From positions 1,444,387 through 1,508,386 of the forward strand of contig NZ_CP019434.1 in NCBI RefSeq assembly GCF_001975725.1: 64,000 nucleotides of DNA, in the 5' to 3' direction. Position numbers and translations under genes: made by a program. Under the pieces are notes generated by a model. It searched no databases. It was not told the DNA's origin and saw nothing but the letters and a program-made list of their open reading frames with translations. Position 1 is the first letter of the stretch. Each line of letters begins with the position of its first letter. The stretch is from Acidihalobacter ferrooxydans. GTDB taxonomy: Bacteria; Pseudomonadota; Gammaproteobacteria; DSM-5130; Acidihalobacteraceae. Of this stretch, positions 8,958-30,293 are shown piece after piece.

Positions 8958-9013
8958 TCGCGCGCCAGGCGTGCAGACAGGTGAGCGCGTGCGTTGCGTC
9001 GCAGCGCATGCGC

Positions 9014-10345
9014 TCAGTCCGCCGGGCGACCCGGTGGCGCGGTCAGTGTGTGGCGCACGATTTCTCCCACCGGCAGGCGCACTTTGAGACGCGACAGCAA
9101 CAGATAGAGCCCGCTGATCTTGCGGTGGAGGTAGAGCACGTCGGTCGGCGGGATGCGGTGGAATTTGTCCCGCACGCGCAGTTGCACCAGCACTTCACGC
9201 ATCCGTTGCGGCAGATCGGAGCCGGAGAAGGCGAAGGGTTCGGCTGCGCGCGCAGGTTCGGCGGCGAGGCGCAGCAGGCGGACGAAGGCGTCGCGGTAGT
9301 GCGCGGAGTCCTCGTCGGCGAGGTAGCCGACCTGGACGGCGGTGCGGGCCACGGCGGCATCGCTACCGTCTATGGCGGCCAGCAGCAGGGCGCGCAAGGC
9401 GTCGCGGCGGTCAGGCGCATACAGGCGCGTCGCGCCGAAGTCGAGCAATTGCAGAGCGCCATTGACGGGGTTGTAGCGGTAGTTGGCGAAATTGGGATCG
9501 GATTGCACCACGCCCCAGACGAAAACCTCGCGCAGGGCGAGTTCGAACAGGGTGTTGGCGAGTTCCGTGCGCTCAGTGGCCGGCAGGTGTTCGAGGCTTT
9601 CGATGGGTTGTCCGTCGAGGAAGCGCATGCACAGCACTTCGGCAGTGGTGCGCTCGGGCAGCGGCAGGGGCAGTTCGAAGCGGGGATCGTCGCCGAGCAG
9701 CGTGGCGTAGCGCTCGATGTGCCGGGCTTCGAGCAGGTAGTCGGCTTCCTCGTGTAACTGTTGCTTGGCTTCTTCGAGCAAAGGGGCGATGTCGAAGCCA
9801 TCCGGCAGGGCGTGGGTGAGACGCAGCAGGGTGGCCATGTTGTCGACGTCGCTGTCGATGCTGCGGCGCACGCCGGGGTATTGCACCTTGACGGCGATGC
9901 GCCGGCCGTCGCGCAGGAGGGCGTCGTGCACCTGACCGATGGAAGCGGCGGCCAGCGGGGTGAAGATGAAGCGTTCGAATGCGCGGTCCCAGTCCTTGCC
10001 CCAGGCGGTTTCGAGCACTTGGGCAACCTGCCCGAGCGGCATGTAGTGCGCCTTGTCGCGCAAGCGGGCCAGCGCTTCGCTCAGTTCGGGCGGGAGTACG
10101 TTGCCACCGTCCATGGAGATGATCTGACCGAGTTTCATGGCGGCGCCGCGCATTTCGGAGAGGCGGTCGCCGAGGCGGCGGGCGTTGGCGGGAGTGAGCA
10201 GGAGTTGGTCGAGGCGCGGACGCTTGCCTTGGGCCAGTTGACGCGTACCTTCGCCGATGGCGCCGCCGGCCAGTCCGCCGGCGAGACGGCCCATTTTGGC
10301 GAACCGGGCAAGGCGGGAGCTGGGCATGCGGTGTTCTTTGGACAT
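9014..10345 (-). CDS. ABC1/UbiB-family atypical kinase (ADCK/COQ8-like)
   Basis: A 443-residue member of the ABC1 kinase-like family, which supports ubiquinone biosynthesis or lipid homeostasis. Motifs in order: KLGQ (AMKLGQIISMDG), the Ala-rich nucleotide loop AAASIGQVHDA, VKVQYPG, EEADYLLEA, QSDPNFANY as the catalytic-loop equivalent, and LLDFG. The QSDPN form resembles mitochondrial COQ8/ADCK3 more than the HADPHPGN of E. coli UbiB, and the C-terminal membrane helices of UbiB are not seen. Start ATG 10345 has GGAG upstream; the frame is open to 10633 but that extension has no family features. Confidence 0.85.
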   Translation of the reverse strand: MSKEHRMPSSRLARFAKMGRLAGGLAGGAIGEGTRQLAQGKRPRLDQLLLTPANARRLGDRLSEMRGAAMKLGQIISMDGGNVLPPELSEALARLRDKAHYMPLGQVAQVLETAWGKDWDRAFERFIFTPLAAASIGQVHDALLRDGRRIAVKVQYPGVRRSIDSDVDNMATLLRLTHALPDGFDIAPLLEEAKQQLHEEADYLLEARHIERYATLLGDDPRFELPLPLPERTTAEVLCMRFLDGQPIESLEHLPATERTELANTLFELALREVFVWGVVQSDPNFANYRYNPVNGALQLLDFGATRLYAPDRRDALRALLLAAIDGSDAAVARTAVQVGYLADEDSAHYRDAFVRLLRLAAEPARAAEPFAFSGSDLPQRMREVLVQLRVRDKFHRIPPTDVLYLHRKISGLYLLLSRLKVRLPVGEIVRHTLTAPPGRPAD

Positions 10346-10669
10346 GGTGTATCTCCGGGTGGTGCAATGGATGACGCGTGGTGTGGCCGCCTGCTGTGAG
10401 AGGCCCGCACCGTCGATGACGGTGCCCCGCCAAGTCGTGCGGGTCATCGATACGGATGCCGCATGCCTTGCCGGCAACGACATCAACCATGGGCGCTTCC
10501 GATACAGCGGGGCGCTGCCTGTCATGCGCCTGGCGCCAGAGTTGCGCGATCCTTTCGCGGCTGCTGGCGTGGCCGACGATTGGCTGTGGATCGGGCGTGG
10601 CTCAACAGGGCGAAAAACGGGTCTGCCAGCCACTCGCTTCGCAAGGATCGTCGCGAACCCGAGCTCTTC
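10346..10669. other. Intergenic region without recognised content
   Basis: Between the DUF6134 gene and the start of the ABC1-kinase gene. Open frames here are short, mutually contradictory and show no protein-like composition. It presumably holds the promoter of the ABC1 gene; no terminator with a T-tract and no repeat was recognised. Confidence 0.4.
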
Positions 10670-11365
10670 TTAACCGCCGGTCGAATTGCCGGTGACGCGT
10701 TCGTAGCGCAGGGTGCGTCCGCCGTCGACCTTGGATTGCAGTGCGATCCATTGTGCGCCGGATTGATACCAGAGGTCGATAGCCAGTTTCTTGCCGGTGA
10801 GGCGATAGTGCGTGGCGGCGACGCGGTGGCCGTTGATCGTCGTGGTGTCCTGGCCGAGCGCGGCGACGTGTACCGGCAGGTATTGGCCGGTCTGCACATT
10901 GAGCAGCGGGCCGCTGTGCAGCCGCACGTGCGGGTCCCAGTAGGCGAAGCTGCGCACGCAGCCGTGCTGCACGGTCTGTCCTTGTTGCGTCTTGATCGTG
11001 AAGCCATGCGGCCCGGCCTGGGCGTCGACGCGTTCGTGTTTGCCGTCGTCGTTGGTGGTCGAGTGCAGCGAGACCAGGCAGCCGTTGCGCCAGTGCGCGG
11101 TGTAATGAAGGTGATAGTGGTAGACGGTCACGAAGAAGAATTTGACCGTGAAGCGGGCGGTGCTGACGACGCGCCGGGTGTCGCCGTGGGTGGTGACGGT
11201 GTAGGTCTGCAGGCCGATGGGGCTGCCGTCGAGCAGGACGCGGTAGCGCAGCGTTTGCGTGTTGGTCGTGTCGGGCGCGGCGGTCGGCGACGCGGCCGCT
11301 GCCGACGCCGGCGATAGACAGGCGATCAGCAGCAGGCCGGCGGTGATGGGGCGGGCGTGGCTCAT
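10670..11365 (-). CDS. Secreted DUF6134-like protein
   Basis: 231 residues, beginning with a signal peptide (MSHARPITAGLLLIACLSPA, then SAAAA). The mature part is predicted beta-rich: YRVLLDGSPIGLQTYTV, VYHYHLHYTAHW, LHSTTNDDGKHERVDA. This resembles DUF6134 proteins of unknown function that occur near CFA-synthase-like and DUF1295 genes. The start ATG at 11365 overlaps the stop of the DUF1295 gene by four bases, so the two are co-translated. The function is not known; a periplasmic lipid-handling role is only a guess from the neighbours. Confidence 0.6.
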   Translation of the reverse strand: MSHARPITAGLLLIACLSPASAAAASPTAAPDTTNTQTLRYRVLLDGSPIGLQTYTVTTHGDTRRVVSTARFTVKFFFVTVYHYHLHYTAHWRNGCLVSLHSTTNDDGKHERVDAQAGPHGFTIKTQQGQTVQHGCVRSFAYWDPHVRLHSGPLLNVQTGQYLPVHVAALGQDTTTINGHRVAATHYRLTGKKLAIDLWYQSGAQWIALQSKVDGGRTLRYERVTGNSTGG

Positions 11366-12108
11366 GCGCGGTTCTCCGTGTGGCGTTTGGGCGGTCGCGG
11401 GATGAAGGCGCTGGTGCGGGCGATGTAGTCGCGGTAGGCCGGGCGGCGTTCGCCGATGTCTTTTTCCATGAGGCTGACGCCGGAGACCTTGAGTAGCAGG
11501 GCGGTCATCAGCGCGGGCGCGAGCAGGCTCCACAGGCTCCCGGCGGCGACGCCGATGAGGCCGAAGCCGAGCCATACACAGGCCTCGCCGAAGTAGTTGG
11601 GATGGCGGCTCCAGCCCCACAGGCCGGTGTCGAGCACGCGGCCGTGATTGGCTGGATCGGCTTTGAAGGCGCTCAGCTGACGGTCGGCAATGGCCTCGAA
11701 GGCGATGCCGCCGAGCGCGATGGCGAGGCCGATCAGGTCGAGTATGTTGCAGGGCGCGGGCGAGACGGCCGCGACAAACAGCGGCAGGGAGATCAGCCAG
11801 GCGAGCACGGCCTGCAGGCCGAACACGAGGTACAGGCTTTTCCAGGCGAAGCCGGGCGAGTGATTACGTCGGATGGCCTGATAGCGCCGATCTTCGGCCT
11901 TGCCGTGATTGCGCACCGCGAGATGGAGGGCCAGGCGCAGCGCCCAGAGCGCGACCAGCGCGACCATGGGCACGGCGCGCGTGCCCTGGCCGAAACCGGC
12001 GTAGACCAGCGTGGCGACGAGGAAGAACAGCGCCCAGAGCGTGTCGACGATGTTCACGTTGCCGCGCGCGAGGCTGTGCAGCCAGGCGAGCAGGGCGATG
12101 ACGAGCAA
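11362..12108 (-). CDS. DUF1295 (steroid 5-alpha-reductase-like) membrane protein
   Basis: About 248 residues with several transmembrane helices and the signature of the family: DTGLWGWSRHPNYFGEACVW, then a C-terminal YRDYIARTSAFIPRPPK. Members resemble isoprenylcysteine methyltransferases and 5-alpha-reductases but their substrate is unknown. The start is uncertain: TTG at 12108 has no ribosome site, while an in-frame CTG at 12144 follows GAGGAT and would add PWSLWPAALAP. It lies downstream of the CFA-like methyltransferase and upstream of the DUF6134 gene. Confidence 0.75.
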   Translation of the reverse strand: MLVIALLAWLHSLARGNVNIVDTLWALFFLVATLVYAGFGQGTRAVPMVALVALWALRLALHLAVRNHGKAEDRRYQAIRRNHSPGFAWKSLYLVFGLQAVLAWLISLPLFVAAVSPAPCNILDLIGLAIALGGIAFEAIADRQLSAFKADPANHGRVLDTGLWGWSRHPNYFGEACVWLGFGLIGVAAGSLWSLLAPALMTALLLKVSGVSLMEKDIGERRPAYRDYIARTSAFIPRPPKRHTENRA

Positions 12109-12210
12109 TGGGGCGAGGGCGGCGGGCCAGAGCGACCAGGGCAGATGAGATCCTCATGATCAACGCCGGGCGCGCCACGGCGCTGGCCCGGCAGTCGGGA
12201 TGAGCGTCCC

Positions 12211-13257
12211 TCAGGCCGGGCGCTCGAACAGGTAGTGGCTGACCCACCACTGGCGCCCTTGTTCGTAGCCGAACAGCTCGGCGCAGGCCATGAAGAAAAT
12301 GCGCCAGCGTTGCAGCCATGCGGCCGCCTCTTGCGCGCCATAGGTCGCTTCCAGGATCGGCATGATATGCGCGCGGCGGCTGTCGGTCAGGGCGAGCCAT
12401 GCATTGAGGGTGCGCTCGTAGTGGCGTCCGTCCCAGCGCCATTGACGCTGCAGGCGCAGATTACCCTGAAACCGCAGCGGCAGTGCGTCGCTCGGCATCA
12501 GGCCGCCGCTGAAGAAATGACGGCTCATCCAGTCGTCGTCGCCTTCATCCTCGAAAAAATAGGGTGTCGAGCGGTGCACGAAAATGTGCATGAAAAACTT
12601 GCCGCCGTCGCGCAGCCAGCCGTGGACACGCTCGAATAGCGTGGGCCAGTTGCGCATGTGTTCGAACATCTCGACCGAGACAATGCGATCGAAGCGGTGT
12701 TCGGTGGCGAAGTCGTTCATGTCCACGGTGACGACCTCGACATTGGCAAAGCCCCTGTGCCGGGCCTGATCGAGGATGTACTCGCGCTGCGAGTGCGAGT
12801 TGGAGACGGCGGTGATGCGCGCGTTCGGGTAGCGCTCGGCCATCCACAGGGTGAGCGAACCCCAGCCGCAGCCGAGTTCGAGAATGTCCTGTCCGTCGCA
12901 CAGATCGGCGTGTGTGCAGGTTTCCAGCAGCGCGGCGTCTTCGGCGGCGGCCAGGTCGTCGATGCCCTCGGACCAGAGGCAGGCACTGTATTTGCGCCGC
13001 GGGCCGAGCGCTTCGGCGAAGAATGCGGCGGGCACTTCGTAATGCTGTTCATTGGCCAGTTCGGGCAGGGCGGCGATGGGCGAGGCGTGCATCGCGGCGA
13101 CGATCCGCTCGGTCTGCGCAGCGGAGCGCTCCGGATCGGCGGCTTCGATCTCGCGCAGGCGCGTGGCGAGCAGGCGGCGGATGCCCTGGCGGATGACGGT
13201 GTCCGGAACCAGGCCCTGTTCGACCCAGCCGATGGCTAGTCTGGTGGCGGTGCTCAT
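12211..13257 (-). CDS. CFA-synthase-like SAM-dependent methyltransferase
   Basis: 348 residues of the cyclopropane-fatty-acyl-phospholipid synthase superfamily. The SAM site is ILELGCGWGSLTLWMAER, followed by SNSHSQREYI and SVEMFEHMRNW, the usual motifs II and III. It is shorter than canonical E. coli Cfa (382 residues) at the N-terminus. This subfamily commonly lies with DUF1295 genes, photolyase and LitR/ChrR-type regulators, as here. A role in modifying membrane lipids under light or oxidative stress is inferred from context. Start ATG 13257 is followed by STATRLAIGWVEQGLVPD, typical of the subgroup. Confidence 0.8.
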   Translation of the reverse strand: MSTATRLAIGWVEQGLVPDTVIRQGIRRLLATRLREIEAADPERSAAQTERIVAAMHASPIAALPELANEQHYEVPAAFFAEALGPRRKYSACLWSEGIDDLAAAEDAALLETCTHADLCDGQDILELGCGWGSLTLWMAERYPNARITAVSNSHSQREYILDQARHRGFANVEVVTVDMNDFATEHRFDRIVSVEMFEHMRNWPTLFERVHGWLRDGGKFFMHIFVHRSTPYFFEDEGDDDWMSRHFFSGGLMPSDALPLRFQGNLRLQRQWRWDGRHYERTLNAWLALTDSRRAHIMPILEATYGAQEAAAWLQRWRIFFMACAELFGYEQGRQWWVSHYLFERPA

Positions 13258-13288
13258 GGGTGTTCTCCCGTGGTGGTGGCGGACGCGA

Positions 13289-13831
13289 TCAATTTCCGAC
13301 CGGCATCAGTTCTTTGAGTCTGGTGAGGATTTCCTGCGGATTCCTGGCCGGATTGACGTCCATGTACATGGCTGCGATGCGGCCCTGCGGGTCGATGATG
13401 AAGGTATGGCGTTTGGCGAATTTCATGATGCCGAACAGGTTGTACAACGAGTGGTAGGCGGCGGCGACCTTGCCGTTGTCGTCGGCGAGCAGGGTGTAGT
13501 TCAGGTGATATTTGGCGATGAACTTGACGTGGTTTTCGACGCTGTCTTCGCTGATGCCGACCACGGACGCGCCGAGTTTCTGGATGTCGGGCACCACGTC
13601 GCGAAAGTGCTGCGCTTCGGTGGTGCAGCCGGGCGTGAAGTCTTTCGGATAAAAGTAGAGCACCAGCCACTTGCCGTGATAGTCGGCGAGGGTGGTGATC
13701 TTGTTGTCCTGATTGGGCAGGGCGAAGTCCGGGGCGGGCTGACCGACGGCGAGCCGGGTGGCAGCCGAGGCGCCGAACGGCAGAACGCTCAGCGTGGCGA
13801 GGGTGATGAGGCTGCGCAGTAGTCGGATCAT
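13289..13831 (-). CDS. Secreted peroxiredoxin (AhpC/TSA, BCP-like)
   Basis: 180 residues with a signal peptide (MIRLLRSLITLATLSVLPFG, cleavage near ASA) and a thioredoxin-fold peroxiredoxin domain: PAPDFALPNQDN, LVLYFYPKDFTPGCTTEAQ with the peroxidatic Cys, and KRHTFIIDPQGRI. The Cys of BCP proteins five residues after the peroxidatic one is absent, suggesting a 1-Cys type or a resolving Cys on a partner. Start ATG 13831 follows AGGAG. Placement beside photolyase and the CFA-like gene fits removal of peroxides formed in light. Confidence 0.85.
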   Translation of the reverse strand: MIRLLRSLITLATLSVLPFGASAATRLAVGQPAPDFALPNQDNKITTLADYHGKWLVLYFYPKDFTPGCTTEAQHFRDVVPDIQKLGASVVGISEDSVENHVKFIAKYHLNYTLLADDNGKVAAAYHSLYNLFGIMKFAKRHTFIIDPQGRIAAMYMDVNPARNPQEILTRLKELMPVGN

Positions 13832-14082
13832 GGTGAAACTCCTGGGATGACGATCAGCCGCGGTTAAGGGCGGCGAGTACGGGTGAGGCAAGCGTGAGCC
13901 ATCTGAGCAGGTATTCGTACGCAAAAGGAAAAAAGATTCAACCCGGATGGTTCACCAGGCAAGGCACGGTGATGGGATGTGGCGACGGGACAATCGGCCA
14001 AAACCGTCCTTCACTGATCTTGAAAATCTCTATTGTCTTTTTGAGAAACACAAAAACCGAGTGACATTTCTCATTTGCCGCG

Positions 14083-14403
14083 TCACGCTCCGCTCTTTCC
14101 GACGCGGCCCCCGGCCTCGTCGAGCCAGGCGGCAAGCTCCGGTTCGCCGCCGATGAATGCGCCGCGCACGAATATCATGGGCAGGTGATGCCAGCCGGTG
14201 GCGGCGGACAGCCGATGGAAACGGTCGCGTTCGGCGGCGCGGCCCATTGGCATGTCGACGAAGACGCAGCGCAGCAGCGGCGTGGCTTGCAGACGGCGTT
14301 CCAGCGCACGGGTGTCGGTGACAGGTGAGCGGAACACGACGATGTCGGCCTGCCTGGCCAGCGCGGCGAGATCGGGGTCGAGCTCGGTGACGGATGTTTG
14401 CAT
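14083..14403 (-). CDS. Glutaredoxin-like protein lacking the redox-active cysteines
   Basis: 106 residues. The fold is suggested by ADIVVFRSPVTDTRALERRL at the position of the first strand and active site, and LPMIFVRGAFIGGEPELAAW, which matches the cis-Pro and FIGG glutathione-binding region of glutaredoxins. The CPxC or CGFS active site is replaced by SPVT, so ordinary redox catalysis is not expected. Its start overlaps the tspO stop by one base (TGATG), making it the third gene of a coupled phrB-tspO-grx unit. A structural or regulatory role is possible. Confidence 0.65.
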   Translation of the reverse strand: MQTSVTELDPDLAALARQADIVVFRSPVTDTRALERRLQATPLLRCVFVDMPMGRAAERDRFHRLSAATGWHHLPMIFVRGAFIGGEPELAAWLDEAGGRVGKSGA

Positions 14404-14897
14404 CAGGGCGCTCCTGCGTGGTCGTGTCGGTTGCGGTTCAGCCACCAGATCGAGGCGTTGAGATAGAGCGCGACCCATAGCCATAGCCAGTACGGGGCCA
14501 GCAGCGCGGCACTGAGCCGATCGACGGCGGCGAAGACAATCAGCGTGGCGCTGAGCAGAGCCAATAGCGCGAGCAGATCGAGCAGTGCGTAGTCCGCACG
14601 ATGGCGACCGAAGAACAGCCATGACCAGGCAGCGTTGGTGAGCAGTTGCAGGGCGTATAACCACAGTCCGGCGGTGCGTGCCGGACTGTCCGGCGCGAGG
14701 TACACCCGTGCGGCGGCGATCGCCATCAGCACGTACAGTGTCGTCCATACGGCGGGAAATACCCAGCGCGGCGGCAGTCCGGCCGGCTTGCGTTGCATGG
14801 CGTACCAGGCATCTGGCGCGAAGCGCGCGCCGCTCGCGGCCACGGCGGCGGTGAGCAGCAGGCTGCACAGCAGCGTGAGGGCGGCGTCGGTGTTCAT
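14403..14897 (-). CDS. tspO: TspO/MBR family tryptophan-rich sensory protein
   Basis: 164 residues, five hydrophobic helices, rich in Trp and aromatic residues. Family motifs: WYAMQRKPAGLPPRWVFPAV near the N-terminus, LTNAAWSWLFFGRHR in the middle, and LLAPYWLWLWVALYLN at the end. TspO proteins bind porphyrins and take part in light- and oxygen-linked responses. It overlaps phrB by four bases (ATGA) upstream and the glutaredoxin-like gene downstream, indicating one transcript. Confidence 0.93.
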   Translation of the reverse strand: MNTDAALTLLCSLLLTAAVAASGARFAPDAWYAMQRKPAGLPPRWVFPAVWTTLYVLMAIAAARVYLAPDSPARTAGLWLYALQLLTNAAWSWLFFGRHRADYALLDLLALLALLSATLIVFAAVDRLSAALLAPYWLWLWVALYLNASIWWLNRNRHDHAGAP

Positions 14898-16357
14898 GCC
14901 GGCATCACGCGGATTCGGGCGTAGGCGTCCAGCGCGCGTTGCCGACTTGCGCGCAGTTCGACGATGGGTCGTGGATAGTCGCTGCCGAGGCGCACCCTTG
15001 CGCTACGCAGGACGTGTTCTGGTGCCTCCCAGGGCGCATGCAGCGCGGTGTCGGGCAGGCAGGCGAGTTCGGGCAGCCAGCGGCGCAGGTAAACCCCGTC
15101 GGGGTCGAATTTTCTGCTTTGCAGCACGGGGTTGAACACGCGAAAGTACGGCGCCGCATCAGCCCCGCAACCGGTGGTCCACTGCCAGCCCTGGGTGTTG
15201 TTGGCCAGATCGGCATCGACCAGGGTATCCCAGAACCAGCGCGCGCCGTCCTGCCAGGGCAGCAGCAGATTTTTGGTCAGGAACGAGGCGACGACCATGC
15301 GCACGCGGTTGTGCATCCAGCCGGTGTGCCAGAGTTCGCGCATGCCGGCGTCGACCAGCGGGATGCCGGTGCGCCCGCGCTGCCAGGCGGCGAGCAGGTC
15401 GGCGTCGTCGCGCCGCCACGCAAAGCGCGCGAAGCGCTCGTCGAGGGCGGTGGCGGGCGTGTGCGGGAAATGGTAGAGCAGATGGTGCGAGAATTCGCGC
15501 CAGCCGAGTTCGCGCAGAAGACTGTCGAGGCTGGCGTGGGCGCCGGGGCGGGCATCGGCGGCCTGCCGGGCACGCACGGCGTGCACGATCTGGCGCGGGC
15601 CGATCTCGCCGAAGTGCAGGTGCGGCGACAGGCGCGAGGTGCTGCGCTGGCCGGGGCGGTCGCGATCCTTGGCGTAGCGCGCACCGGCGTGGTCGAGAAA
15701 TTCGCGCAGCATGTTCCACGCGCCAGCTTCGCCCGGTTGCCAGTGATCGTTGAATCCGGCGTCCCAGGGAATCGTCGGCAACAGGCCGAGCGTGTCGAGG
15801 GCGGCGCTGTGCGCGGCGGATGGCAGCAGGGTTTCGGGCGGGATTTCGGATAACGCTTCGCCCTGTTCCGGCAGGCCCTGGCGCAGACAGGCTTTCCAGA
15901 ACGGGGTGAACACGCGGTAAGGGCCACCGCTCTGGGTGGTCAGCGACCAGGGCTCGAAGAGCAGGGCGGCATTGTGGCTGTGCGCGGCGGTGCCTTCGGC
16001 ACGCAGCGCCTCCTTCACCTCGGTGTCGCGGGCGATGGTGGCGGGTTCGTACAGTCGGTTCCAGTGCACGGCGTTGGCGCCGGTCTCGGCAATCAATTGA
16101 CGAAGCGTTTCGAGCGTCCGGCCATGCCGGATGACGAGTCCGCTGCCGTGCTCGCGCAGCCGGGCGTCGAGCGCGGTGAGGCTGTGCTGCAGCCACCAGC
16201 GTGAGGCGGCGCCCGGCGCCCAGGGCGCTTCTTCGTCGGGTGCGTGGATGTATACCGGCACGATGCGCCTGTGGTTGTTCAACGCGGCTGCCAGCGCAGG
16301 GTTGTCGGCCAGGCGCAGGTCGCGGCGGAACCAGACAATGGCAGGGTGGGCGGTCAT
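14894..16357 (-). CDS. phrB: Deoxyribodipyrimidine photolyase
   Basis: 487 residues, blue-light DNA repair of cyclobutane pyrimidine dimers with FAD. The N-terminal antenna domain starts IVWFRRDLRLADNPAL; the C-terminal FAD domain has the RSTSRLSPHLHFGEI region, LRELGWREFSHHLLY and WQWTTGCGADAAPYFRVFNP, including the conserved Trp and Asn region near the flavin. Full length. First gene of the minus-strand unit phrB-tspO-grx-like. The promoter and possible CarH operator lie about 160-190 bp upstream. Confidence 0.95.
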   Translation of the reverse strand: MTAHPAIVWFRRDLRLADNPALAAALNNHRRIVPVYIHAPDEEAPWAPGAASRWWLQHSLTALDARLREHGSGLVIRHGRTLETLRQLIAETGANAVHWNRLYEPATIARDTEVKEALRAEGTAAHSHNAALLFEPWSLTTQSGGPYRVFTPFWKACLRQGLPEQGEALSEIPPETLLPSAAHSAALDTLGLLPTIPWDAGFNDHWQPGEAGAWNMLREFLDHAGARYAKDRDRPGQRSTSRLSPHLHFGEIGPRQIVHAVRARQAADARPGAHASLDSLLRELGWREFSHHLLYHFPHTPATALDERFARFAWRRDDADLLAAWQRGRTGIPLVDAGMRELWHTGWMHNRVRMVVASFLTKNLLLPWQDGARWFWDTLVDADLANNTQGWQWTTGCGADAAPYFRVFNPVLQSRKFDPDGVYLRRWLPELACLPDTALHAPWEAPEHVLRSARVRLGSDYPRPIVELRASRQRALDAYARIRVMPA

Positions 16358-16490: not shown

Positions 16491-16516
16491 GTTGAGTTCA
16501 AGTAGTATTGTTTCAC

Positions 16517-16547
16517 TTGTATAGGATATGTATAAGTATTGTCAATT
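16517..16547 (-). promoter_or_regulatory. phrB promoter overlapped by a CarH-type operator candidate
   Basis: On the minus strand, TTGACA (16545-16540) and TATACA (16523-16518) are 16 bp apart, a near-consensus sigma-70 promoter reading toward phrB. The same bases hold three direct half-sites at exact 11-bp steps: ATTGACAA, TTATACAT and CTATACAA. The second and third match the nTnTACAn half-site reported for Thermus CarH, and the first has one mismatch. Three half-sites at 11-bp spacing covering the -35 and -10 boxes is the architecture known for CarH repression. The cognate regulator gene starts at 17934. Confidence 0.65.
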
Positions 16548-16603
16548 AATTCGAGCCATCCACCCGGCGAGGTGAGGAGTGCGCAGGGATTCGGGTTCAA
16601 CCC

Positions 16604-16763
16604 AGGAACCTGTCGGACCTGGAAAGAATCGGCTGCGGCGATGGAAAATGGGCCCACAATCCACTCTTTATCGCCGAATAGAACCCCTCGTGCTCAAAAG
16701 ACGAGCAACTGGCCTCCCTCCGCTCGCATCGCTTCGCGATCCTGCACGTCCGACAGACTTCCA
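16604..16763 (+). repeat. Dispersed repeat family 2, long copy
   Basis: Starts AGGAACCTGTCGGACCTGG, continues with the family core GGAAAGAATCGGCTGCGGCG and GATGGAAAATGGGCCCA, and ends CGACAGACTTCCAG. The ends are degenerate inverted repeats of one another. It aligns along its whole length with 35897-36060 and, shorter, with 43566-43663 on the other strand. Confidence 0.75.
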
Positions 16764-16847
16764 GGGTGGGCTGACATGCGTCGTCAGCGCATCCGAAGGC
16801 GGTTGGTTTGCGAATCGAAGCAGAGCGGTCAATCAGGAATGGAAGGT

Positions 16848-17765
16848 ATGCGCGTGTTGACGGATACACTCAAAAGGCTGGGATCGGCGTCGCCGCTGGC
16901 ATCGATGATGCGTGCGTTGAGCGATTTTTCCGGTGCCGGCGTACTGAACGTTCTGGCGTCGAGTTCGGGGCTCGAAATCAGCTGCGGTATCACGTTCGAT
17001 CTGTGCAACGGGCTGGCCCTGGATGTGTACCGTCCGCGGGCTGCGGAGCAGGCTCCGGTGATCGTGTTTTACTGGGGCGGGCGATGGGAAGAAGGCGACC
17101 GCTCGATGTATCGCTTCGTCGGTTGTGAGCTGGCCCGGAAGGGTTTCGTGGTGGTGATTCCGAACTATCGGCTCTATCCCACGGTGCGGTTCCCGGCCTT
17201 CATCGAGGACTCGGCGCGTGCCGTGGGCTGGGTGCATGCCAGGGCCGCCGATTACGGCGGCGACCCGGAGAAAATCGTGTTGCTGGGGCATTCAGCCGGT
17301 GCCTACAACGCCGCCATGCTGGCGCTGAATCCGGCGTATCTGGATGCGCTTGGCGGCTCGCGTGAATGGCTGCGCGGCATGATTGGCCTGGGCGGGCCTT
17401 ATGACTTCCTGCCGCTGGTCGATGAGGATCTCAAGGATATGTTCGGCCCGCCGAGCGGGTATCCGCTGACGCAACCGATACACTGGGCGGACGGCAGCAA
17501 TCCGCCGCTGCTGCTCATCGAAAGCTGGGACGACAGGATCGTTTATCCCAAAAATACGCTCAATCTCTACGCGCAAGTCAGGGCTAACGGCGGGCCGGTC
17601 GAAAAATACCTGCCGCATGGGCTCAGCCATGAAATGCTGATCGGGGTGGTGTCGAATGTGCTGGCGTTCCGCTCCGACATCGTGTCGCGCATCGTGGAGT
17701 TCACGCATCGGGTCACCGACACGGCGCCAGCAGTGGACCGGGCGCCAAGGCCGTGCGGAGGTTGA
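16848..17765 (+). CDS. Alpha/beta hydrolase, carboxylesterase-like
   Basis: 305 residues. The nucleophile elbow is LLGHSAGAYNA, the acid is probably the Asp in ESWDDRIVYPKN, and the His is in HGLSHEM. The usual HGGG oxyanion motif reads FYWGGRWEEGD. This places it among BD-FAE/lipase-like esterases; the substrate is unknown. The frame is open from 16539 but that stretch is the family 2 repeat. ATG 16848 lies nine bases after AGGA and is preferred over ATG 16839. It is transcribed away from phrB and upstream of the MerR regulator. Confidence 0.78.
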   Translation: MRVLTDTLKRLGSASPLASMMRALSDFSGAGVLNVLASSSGLEISCGITFDLCNGLALDVYRPRAAEQAPVIVFYWGGRWEEGDRSMYRFVGCELARKGFVVVIPNYRLYPTVRFPAFIEDSARAVGWVHARAADYGGDPEKIVLLGHSAGAYNAAMLALNPAYLDALGGSREWLRGMIGLGGPYDFLPLVDEDLKDMFGPPSGYPLTQPIHWADGSNPPLLLIESWDDRIVYPKNTLNLYAQVRANGGPVEKYLPHGLSHEMLIGVVSNVLAFRSDIVSRIVEFTHRVTDTAPAVDRAPRPCGG

Positions 17766-17860
17766 GTACAGGCGTCCCGATGTCTTGCACGCACAACGGA
17801 CAGATCGGGATTGAGCATGGGCGAACCGCGTGGCGGAATCGTTTGCACGAGCGGTCTGTC

Positions 17861-17896
17861 CGATCGCTTTGCCGGTCGCTTTGCCGATCACTTTGC
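17861..17896 (+). repeat. Three tandem 12-bp repeats before the MerR-family gene
   Basis: Units CGATCGCTTTGC, CGGTCGCTTTGC and CGATCACTTTGC follow one another without gaps and end 37 bp before the GTG start at 17934. Their position in the promoter region and the presence of three units suggest an operator, possibly for the MerR protein itself. Their sequence differs from the nTnTACAn sites before phrB. Confidence 0.55.
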
Positions 17897-17933
17897 TAAG
17901 ATACTTGGGCAATAGTGATACAAAGAGTCGACG

Positions 17934-18881
17934 GTGAGTTCAGAGCACAATCCACAGCCGGCGGAAGAGCCGTATTACCCGATCCGCACAGTGGCGAATC
18001 TGACCGGCATCAATCCGGTTACGCTACGGGCGTGGGAACGGCGCTATGCGCTGTTGCAACCGCACCGCACGCCGAAGGGGCACCGCCTGTACACGCGGCA
18101 GGACATCGAGCGGGTTCGCGAGACGGTCATGCTGCTCAAAACAGGTATCCCGATCAGCCAGGTGCGCACGCATCTGGATCAGCGCGCCGCGCCGATTGAC
18201 GAGCTGCCGGCGCCGGCGCCGGCGCAGGAGGGGAGCGGGCCCTGGACGCAGTATTTCGACCGCATGCTCGCTGCCATCGAACGCTTCGACGACACTTTGC
18301 TGGATGCGGTGTACAACGAGGCACTGTCGCTCTATCCGGTCGATCTGGTCACGGTGCGCTTGATCCAGCCGTTGCTCAGACGGCTGGGCGAGCAATGGCA
18401 GACGCGCCCCGGCGGGGTGGCCGAGGAGCACTACTTCAGCACCTATCTGCGCAACCGGCTGGGTGCGCGTCTGCATCATCTGGCGCCGCGCCGCGCCAGG
18501 CCGCGGGTGCTCGCCGCCTGCCTGCCGGGGGAGCAGCATGAGACGGGCCTGCTGCTGTTCTGTCTGATAGCCGCGTCGCGGGGCTATGGCTTGCTGATGC
18601 TCGGCGCGAACACGCCATTCGATCAGGTGGCCTATGCGGCCAGAACCGGTGGCTGCGATGCGATTGTGTTTTCCGCCACGACTCCGCCACCGGCGGAAGC
18701 CGTCGGCGCGCAATTGGCCGAACTGGTGAGCACGGTGGGGATGCCGGTGCTGCTCGGCGGCCATGCCTGCGCCGGGTTGGAGCGTACGCCGGTTGCGAGC
18801 AGCGGGGTCATCCTGCTCGGCGAGGATCTCTACGCCGCCGCCGAGCGGCTGCGCACTCTGCTGGGGCCGGCGCACGACTGA
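17934..18881 (+). CDS. litR: MerR-family regulator with cobalamin-binding domain (CarH/LitR type)
   Basis: 315 residues. Residues about 15-85 are a MerR winged helix-turn-helix (YPIRTVANLTGINPVTLRAW, ERRYALLQPHRTPKGHRLYT). Next comes a helical bundle with the diagnostic Wx9EH motif (W in GEQW, nine residues, then EH), and then a Rossmann-like B12 domain with PGEQHETGLLLF carrying the lower-ligand His. In CarH/LitR proteins, adenosylcobalamin binding makes the tetramer that represses DNA, and light breaks the complex. All key residues are present, so this should be a functional B12 photoreceptor. GTG start; photolyase, tspO and the CFA-like gene lie on the opposite strand nearby. Confidence 0.88.
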   Translation: MSSEHNPQPAEEPYYPIRTVANLTGINPVTLRAWERRYALLQPHRTPKGHRLYTRQDIERVRETVMLLKTGIPISQVRTHLDQRAAPIDELPAPAPAQEGSGPWTQYFDRMLAAIERFDDTLLDAVYNEALSLYPVDLVTVRLIQPLLRRLGEQWQTRPGGVAEEHYFSTYLRNRLGARLHHLAPRRARPRVLAACLPGEQHETGLLLFCLIAASRGYGLLMLGANTPFDQVAYAARTGGCDAIVFSATTPPPAEAVGAQLAELVSTVGMPVLLGGHACAGLERTPVASSGVILLGEDLYAAAERLRTLLGPAHD

Positions 18882-30182: not shown

Positions 30183-30293
30183 GGTGGCCCGTATCGGTTC
30201 CCCGCGACGATAGACTGTGAACTCCGCCAGGCCCGGAAGGGAGCAACGGCAGCAGTGGACTCGTGCGCCGGGGCGTGCTGGTACGGGCTGCCT
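30183..30293 (+). ncRNA. ffs: Signal recognition particle 4.5S RNA
   Basis: The universally conserved SRP apical domain is present: CCAGGCCCGGAAGGGAGCA at about 30228-30246, with the GGAA-type tetraloop and asymmetric loop. The ends pair: GGTGGCCCGTA at 30183 with TACGGGCTGCC at 30282-30292, giving the long hairpin of a bacterial 4.5S RNA of about 110 nt. It lies directly upstream of dnaX, a common gammaproteobacterial arrangement. Ends are approximate to a few bases. Confidence 0.88.

Follow-up and report, generated by a model that had tools for sequence, protein, structure and literature searches.

A predicted class I LitR/CarH photoreceptor-repressor and its putative operator at the photolyase promoter of Acidihalobacter ferrooxydans

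Within a 64,000-nucleotide stretch of the Acidihalobacter ferrooxydans genome (the window), the gene beginning at position 17934 probably encodes a class I LitR/CarH photoreceptor-repressor that acts on the promoter of the nearby photolyase gene phrB; we assign this reading a probability of about 0.77. DNA binding, AdoCbl binding, repression and the relief of repression by light are properties that we infer for the 17934 protein from its sequence, its putative operator and its relatives. The regulator gene is the following:

17934..18881, + strand: litR/carH-like gene, encoding a MerR DNA-binding domain, a B12-binding_2 four-helix bundle and a B12-binding Rossmann domain

Pfam recognized the first two domains of the 17934 protein (MerR_1, 4.6e-16; B12-binding_2, 4.6e-9), while the match to the Rossmann B12-binding family (2.7e-5) fell under the gathering cut-off. 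Among solved structures, its closest matches are Thermus CarH 3whp/5c8d (E ~3e-30). The MerR recognition-helix motif RxWERRY is present as RAWERRY at residue 32. The first-pass annotation had credited this MerR protein with a Wx9EH motif and an EQHxxG region, and we located both: Wx9EH, the contact to the adenosyl group, is WQTRPGGVAEEH at residues 155-166 and aligns with Thermus W131/E141/H142, and ExHx2G occupies residues 200-205. Under the class I B12 motif criterion (D/ExHx2G/P-x41-SxT/V-x22-27-GG), an exact regular-expression match, ExHx2G-x41-SxT-x25-GG, spans residues 200-276 and includes the lower axial His. A loose regular expression for the motif undercounted intact relatives because motif spacing varies, and an alignment was used instead. 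In this alignment, Thermus W131, E141, H142, E175 and H177 are all retained in the 17934 protein and in most relatives, the ligand residues being kept in 34 of 41. The protein has every sequence feature that defines a B12-binding CarH/LitR regulator, and AdoCbl binding is predicted. Against the NCBIfam CarH equivalog model NF052513 it scores 131.8 bits, with a curated cut-off of 400, and by this score it is a relative within the CarH family, not a Thermus-type equivalog. A homologue search of genome contigs returned one weak Desulfobacterales match, and a single-sequence AlphaFold model was discarded as too poor (pLDDT 58).

Elsewhere in the genome, the B12-binding family matched only one further protein, a large one (1241-residue frame) that is probably MetH. 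The genome encodes a PduO-type adenosyltransferase (C1:2702746), which can supply AdoCbl from cobalamin; a CobA-type adenosyltransferase was not found.

The residue that follows the Trp, His132 in Thermus, is Gln156 in the 17934 protein, and His is absent from this position in all 34 aligned sequences whose ligand set is intact. A His after the Trp is a common, not a universal, feature of class I LitR/CarH proteins. In the light state of Thermus CarH, His132 serves as the upper ligand of cobalt, and an H132A variant stays largely tetrameric in light (PMC10442372); an earlier report, as cited in that paper, describes H132A as disassembling in light. With Gln at this position, the photoswitch chemistry may therefore differ. 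We tentatively propose, at slightly less than even odds, that the photolyase-linked class I LitR clade, which keeps the AdoCbl site and lacks His132, switches via a photochemical end state other than that of Thermus CarH, with water-ligated or otherwise ligated cobalt. The absence of His132 across the clade constitutes a natural test of whether the CarH switch needs bis-His ligation, a requirement on which the two reports on Thermus H132A disagree.

The same position bears on a reading in which the protein does repress at the operator but senses cobalamin supply, or the redox or ligand state of cobalt, through B12 and not light. Such a role would fit the Gln, the lack of His among those 34 relatives and the Thermus H132A tetramer that persists after illumination (PMC10442372). 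However, it sits poorly with the light-induced disassembly in the report cited there, with the retention of the Trp, Glu and His of Wx9EH together with the lower His, and with photolyase and folE as targets, which suit light. We regard it as unlikely.

The predicted light-responsive repressor would act on a putative operator on the minus strand before phrB, made up of three direct repeats:

16536..16546, - strand: putative operator direct repeat 1, ATTGACAATAC; contains the -35 hexamer TTGACA (16545-16540) and fits nnnnTnnACAn (PMC9304148)
16525..16535, - strand: putative operator direct repeat 2, TTATACATATC; within the promoter spacer, outside both hexamers
16514..16524, - strand: putative operator direct repeat 3, CTATACAAGTG; contains the -10-like TATACA (16523-16518)

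The half-sites ATTGACAA, TTATACAT and CTATACAA lie at 16546, 16535 and 16524 of the minus strand. Their spacing in steps of exactly 11 bp, described earlier, was confirmed, as was the phrB promoter TTGACA-N16-TATACA that the repeats overlie. No fourth repeat was found on either flank of the 16546-16514 array. Only two of the half-sites had been counted as full matches in the first-pass annotation. The published CarH repeat consensus is nnnnTnnACAn, and in Myxococcus the -35 TTGACA itself lies within a repeat (PMC9304148); by this consensus all three phrB repeats are full and the first is not imperfect. The original observation is real and even stronger than claimed. The phrB promoter was missed by a promoter scanner that demands a final T, which TATACA does not have. 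Rfam gave no riboswitch or other element near the predicted operator. The sole Rfam match in the window was the bacterial small SRP RNA RF00169 at 30191-30287 (+).

The genes around the operator are arranged as follows:

14894..16357, - strand: phrB, deoxyribodipyrimidine photolyase-family gene (Pfam DNA_photolyase and FAD_binding_7), with a leader of ~150 nt
14403..14897, - strand: TspO/MBR family gene (Pfam TspO_MBR, 1e-36), with a 4-nt overlap with the phrB stop
14083..14403, - strand: gene for a small protein whose relatives lie close to litR in two further genomes
10670..13924, - strand: peroxiredoxin, cyclopropane-fatty-acid-synthase-like (cfa), DUF1295 and DUF6134 genes (Pfam)
16842..17765, + strand: alpha/beta hydrolase gene (Pfam BD-FAE), between the operator and litR

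phrB probably leads the controlled unit; it overlaps with the TspO gene, and the latter with the 14083-14403 gene, and the three very likely form a single unit, the TspO gene probably sharing the phrB transcript. The unit had been described as photolyase, TspO and a glutaredoxin-like protein; Pfam bears out the first two members, whereas the small protein labelled glutaredoxin-like matches no Pfam family. A gap of 160-250 nt with a weak terminator-like hairpin (13960-13941) separates this unit from the peroxiredoxin-to-DUF6134 genes, for which no operator of their own was detected at up to two mismatches, and we therefore put their control no higher than possible. The cfa, DUF1295 and DUF6134 genes adjoin litR in relatives and so might belong to the regulon through read-through. 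The hydrolase has no homologue in the relatives' litR loci. Directly upstream of litR there is no clear operator; relatives often have one. A possible divergent promoter, TTGTTT-N17-TATAAG, read by eye at window 16508-16538 (+), lies beneath the phrB operator and could possibly serve the hydrolase gene and litR.

Homologues of the regulator occur in 57 of 369 sampled genomes of the class, so that 'unexpected', the word first used for this regulon, was too strong; none was present in the 4 other genomes of the order examined. In about half of the relatives' loci litR is directly followed by phrB, and in others by cfa-DUF2878-DUF1295-DUF6134. Genes for RudS (2-thiouracil desulfurase-DUF1722), glutathione peroxidase and lipocalin recur near the relatives' litR. 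Across 41 litR loci, the window locus included, we counted 30 tandem TnTACA runs at the 11-bp step versus 0-4 at steps of 7-10 and 12-17, and runs of at least three repeats numbered 5 at the 11-bp step and 0 at other steps. More than half of the 11-bp-step runs (19/30) fall in the 500 bp upstream of litR. Exact three-repeat sites are found in 10 of the 369 genomes, eight of which have a regulator homologue (hypergeometric P 7e-6, nominal because genomes of the class sample are not independent), and a reversed-pattern control was not associated with the homologue across the 369 genomes.

Two sister-genus genomes (L091 and L092) carry a phrB 71% identical to that in the window with an ABC1-kinase gene immediately after it, and have neither the regulator nor the repeats nor the TspO-to-DUF6134 block. 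Within window positions 8999-16357, that block sits between phrB and the ABC1-kinase gene. This photostress block appears to have been gained or lost together with litR, and operator and regulator are thus present or absent as a pair.

In two other, distant relatives (L069 and L070), the EH of Wx9EH and the lower axial His are lost and 11-bp-step TnTACA repeats near the regulator are retained, as if DNA recognition had outlasted B12 binding. Both the latter proteins and a regulon content the same as that in Pseudomonas would agree with a regulator that is B12-independent, like Pseudomonas class II LitR, and relieved by a blue-light LOV partner. In the window, however, the B12-binding motif is complete, 34 of the 41 sequences keep its ligand residues, and class II sites have the form TGTACA-N12-TGTACA, not an 11-bp step, which makes this reading very improbable.

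The case for a B12-binding class I regulator with an operator at phrB was extended to the complete 3.45-Mb genome through pattern and profile searches alone. The pattern TNTACA-N5-TNTACA-N5-TNTACA, with at most one mismatch, matched once in the window, against 0.00 expected from 100 dinucleotide shuffles, and once in the whole genome, at the phrB site (reversed-pattern control, 0; i.i.d. expectation, 0.02). When loosened to three copies of the published TnnACA, the search gave two genome matches, the phrB site and a site in the dnaA-dnaN gap. The latter (C1:1421), whose TTATCCACA is a DnaA box, was set aside as chance, as was a candidate with two mismatches at C1:2105267.

The two-repeat core TnTACA-N5-TnTACA matched exactly three times in the genome, ahead of phrB, folE and a DUF1475-DUF2062 gene pair, and the same three sites were the top genome matches of a profile built from the relatives' sites only. 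Base composition alone predicts ~0.9 such cores per genome (i.i.d.), so any single site could be chance; the set persuades less through its number than through the positions of its sites. The core TGTACA-N5-TATACA at C1:2004429-2004445 lies about 40-55 bp ahead of folE (GTP cyclohydrolase I) and overlaps a TATAAT on the folE strand, marking this promoter as a probable second one under LitR control. A core of the same form at C1:871104-871120 lies ~85 bp ahead of the DUF1475 gene, with the DUF2062 gene next, and identifies a probable third. The LitR regulon of P. putida includes PhrB, UfaM and FolE, and in P. mendocina light induces folE (PMC9758184). Because folE, a known Pseudomonas LitR-regulon gene, was found here by sequence alone, it provides independent support. 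The first-pass annotation had called for such a genome scan and had held that equally frequent matches at random genomic positions would speak against an operator; the core instead occurs three times, always before a gene, and two of these genes, phrB and folE, are known LitR-regulon members. We give scarcely any credence to the view that the repeats arose by chance in an AT-rich sigma-70 promoter (TTGACA, two TATACA) and are no operator, since, although two of the three coincide with promoter hexamers and nearly one two-repeat core is expected at random, the three-repeat form is rare in window shuffles and in the whole genome, all three cores stand before genes, folE among them, the 11-bp peak in relatives is sharp, and sister genomes devoid of litR are devoid of the repeats.

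The interpretation of this locus as a CarH/LitR regulator with its operator is thus supported. In the dark, AdoCbl would be bound base-off via His202 of the 17934 protein (Thermus His177), Trp155, Glu165 and His166 would cap its adenosyl group, and the bound cofactor would hold the protein as an oligomer. The MerR domains of this oligomer would sit on the three 11-bp repeats over the phrB -35 to -10 region and block RNA polymerase. In light, the Co-C bond would break, the oligomer would release the DNA, and transcription of phrB-tspO together with the small gene downstream would follow. Likely further targets would be the DUF1475-DUF2062 pair and folE, which serves pterin synthesis and is a possible source of the photolyase antenna pterin. 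Counted against this reading were Gln156, the NF052513 score (131.8/400), the Rossmann domain below the Pfam gathering score and a litR gene without a clear operator of its own.

AdoCbl photoreceptors that have been studied well control carotenoid genes. The same type of sensor here appears to govern DNA photorepair (phrB), pterin synthesis (folE) and TspO, in a predicted regulon that is compact, with three promoters. Thermus thermophilus CarH (5C8D, 3WHP) and the 17934 protein have in common their domain order, RxWERRY, Wx9EH and the ExHx2G B12 motif, and the Thermus operator, like the phrB site, consists of three tandem 11-bp repeats, one of which contains the -35. The two proteins are, however, only ~33% identical, and the 17934 protein lacks the His after the Trp. 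Whereas Thermus CarH controls carotenoid genes, the predicted targets here are photolyase, TspO and folE, and regulator and target stand on opposite strands with the hydrolase gene between them. Pseudomonas class II LitR (PplR, PmlR) resembles the present system in a regulon of photolyase, the cfa-like UfaM and FolE and in dark repression, which we infer here; yet the class II proteins lack the B12 Rossmann motif, have a short LOV partner and use TGTACA-N12-TGTACA sites, whereas at the 17934 locus the motif is intact and the repeats follow an 11-bp step, which places the protein outside class II. In Vibrio cholerae, the MerR-like VCA0056 and the phr gene VCA0057 similarly link a LitR-family regulator to a photolyase gene, with a blue-light response, but Vibrio LitR (class IV) is reported to be without a B12-binding domain, and the 17934 protein has the B12 motif. 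Since Pseudomonas and Vibrio are both known to have LitR-family regulators next to photolyase genes (PMC9758184; PMC5241685), and photolyase-LitR-RudS operons have been noted in work on RudS (PMC11417400), the regulator-photolyase arrangement itself is no surprise. We take the 17934 protein to be a new, mildly unusual member of class I LitR/CarH, placed among photorepair genes, and the points of interest are the predicted intact B12 site in a photolyase-linked clade and the lack of His132.
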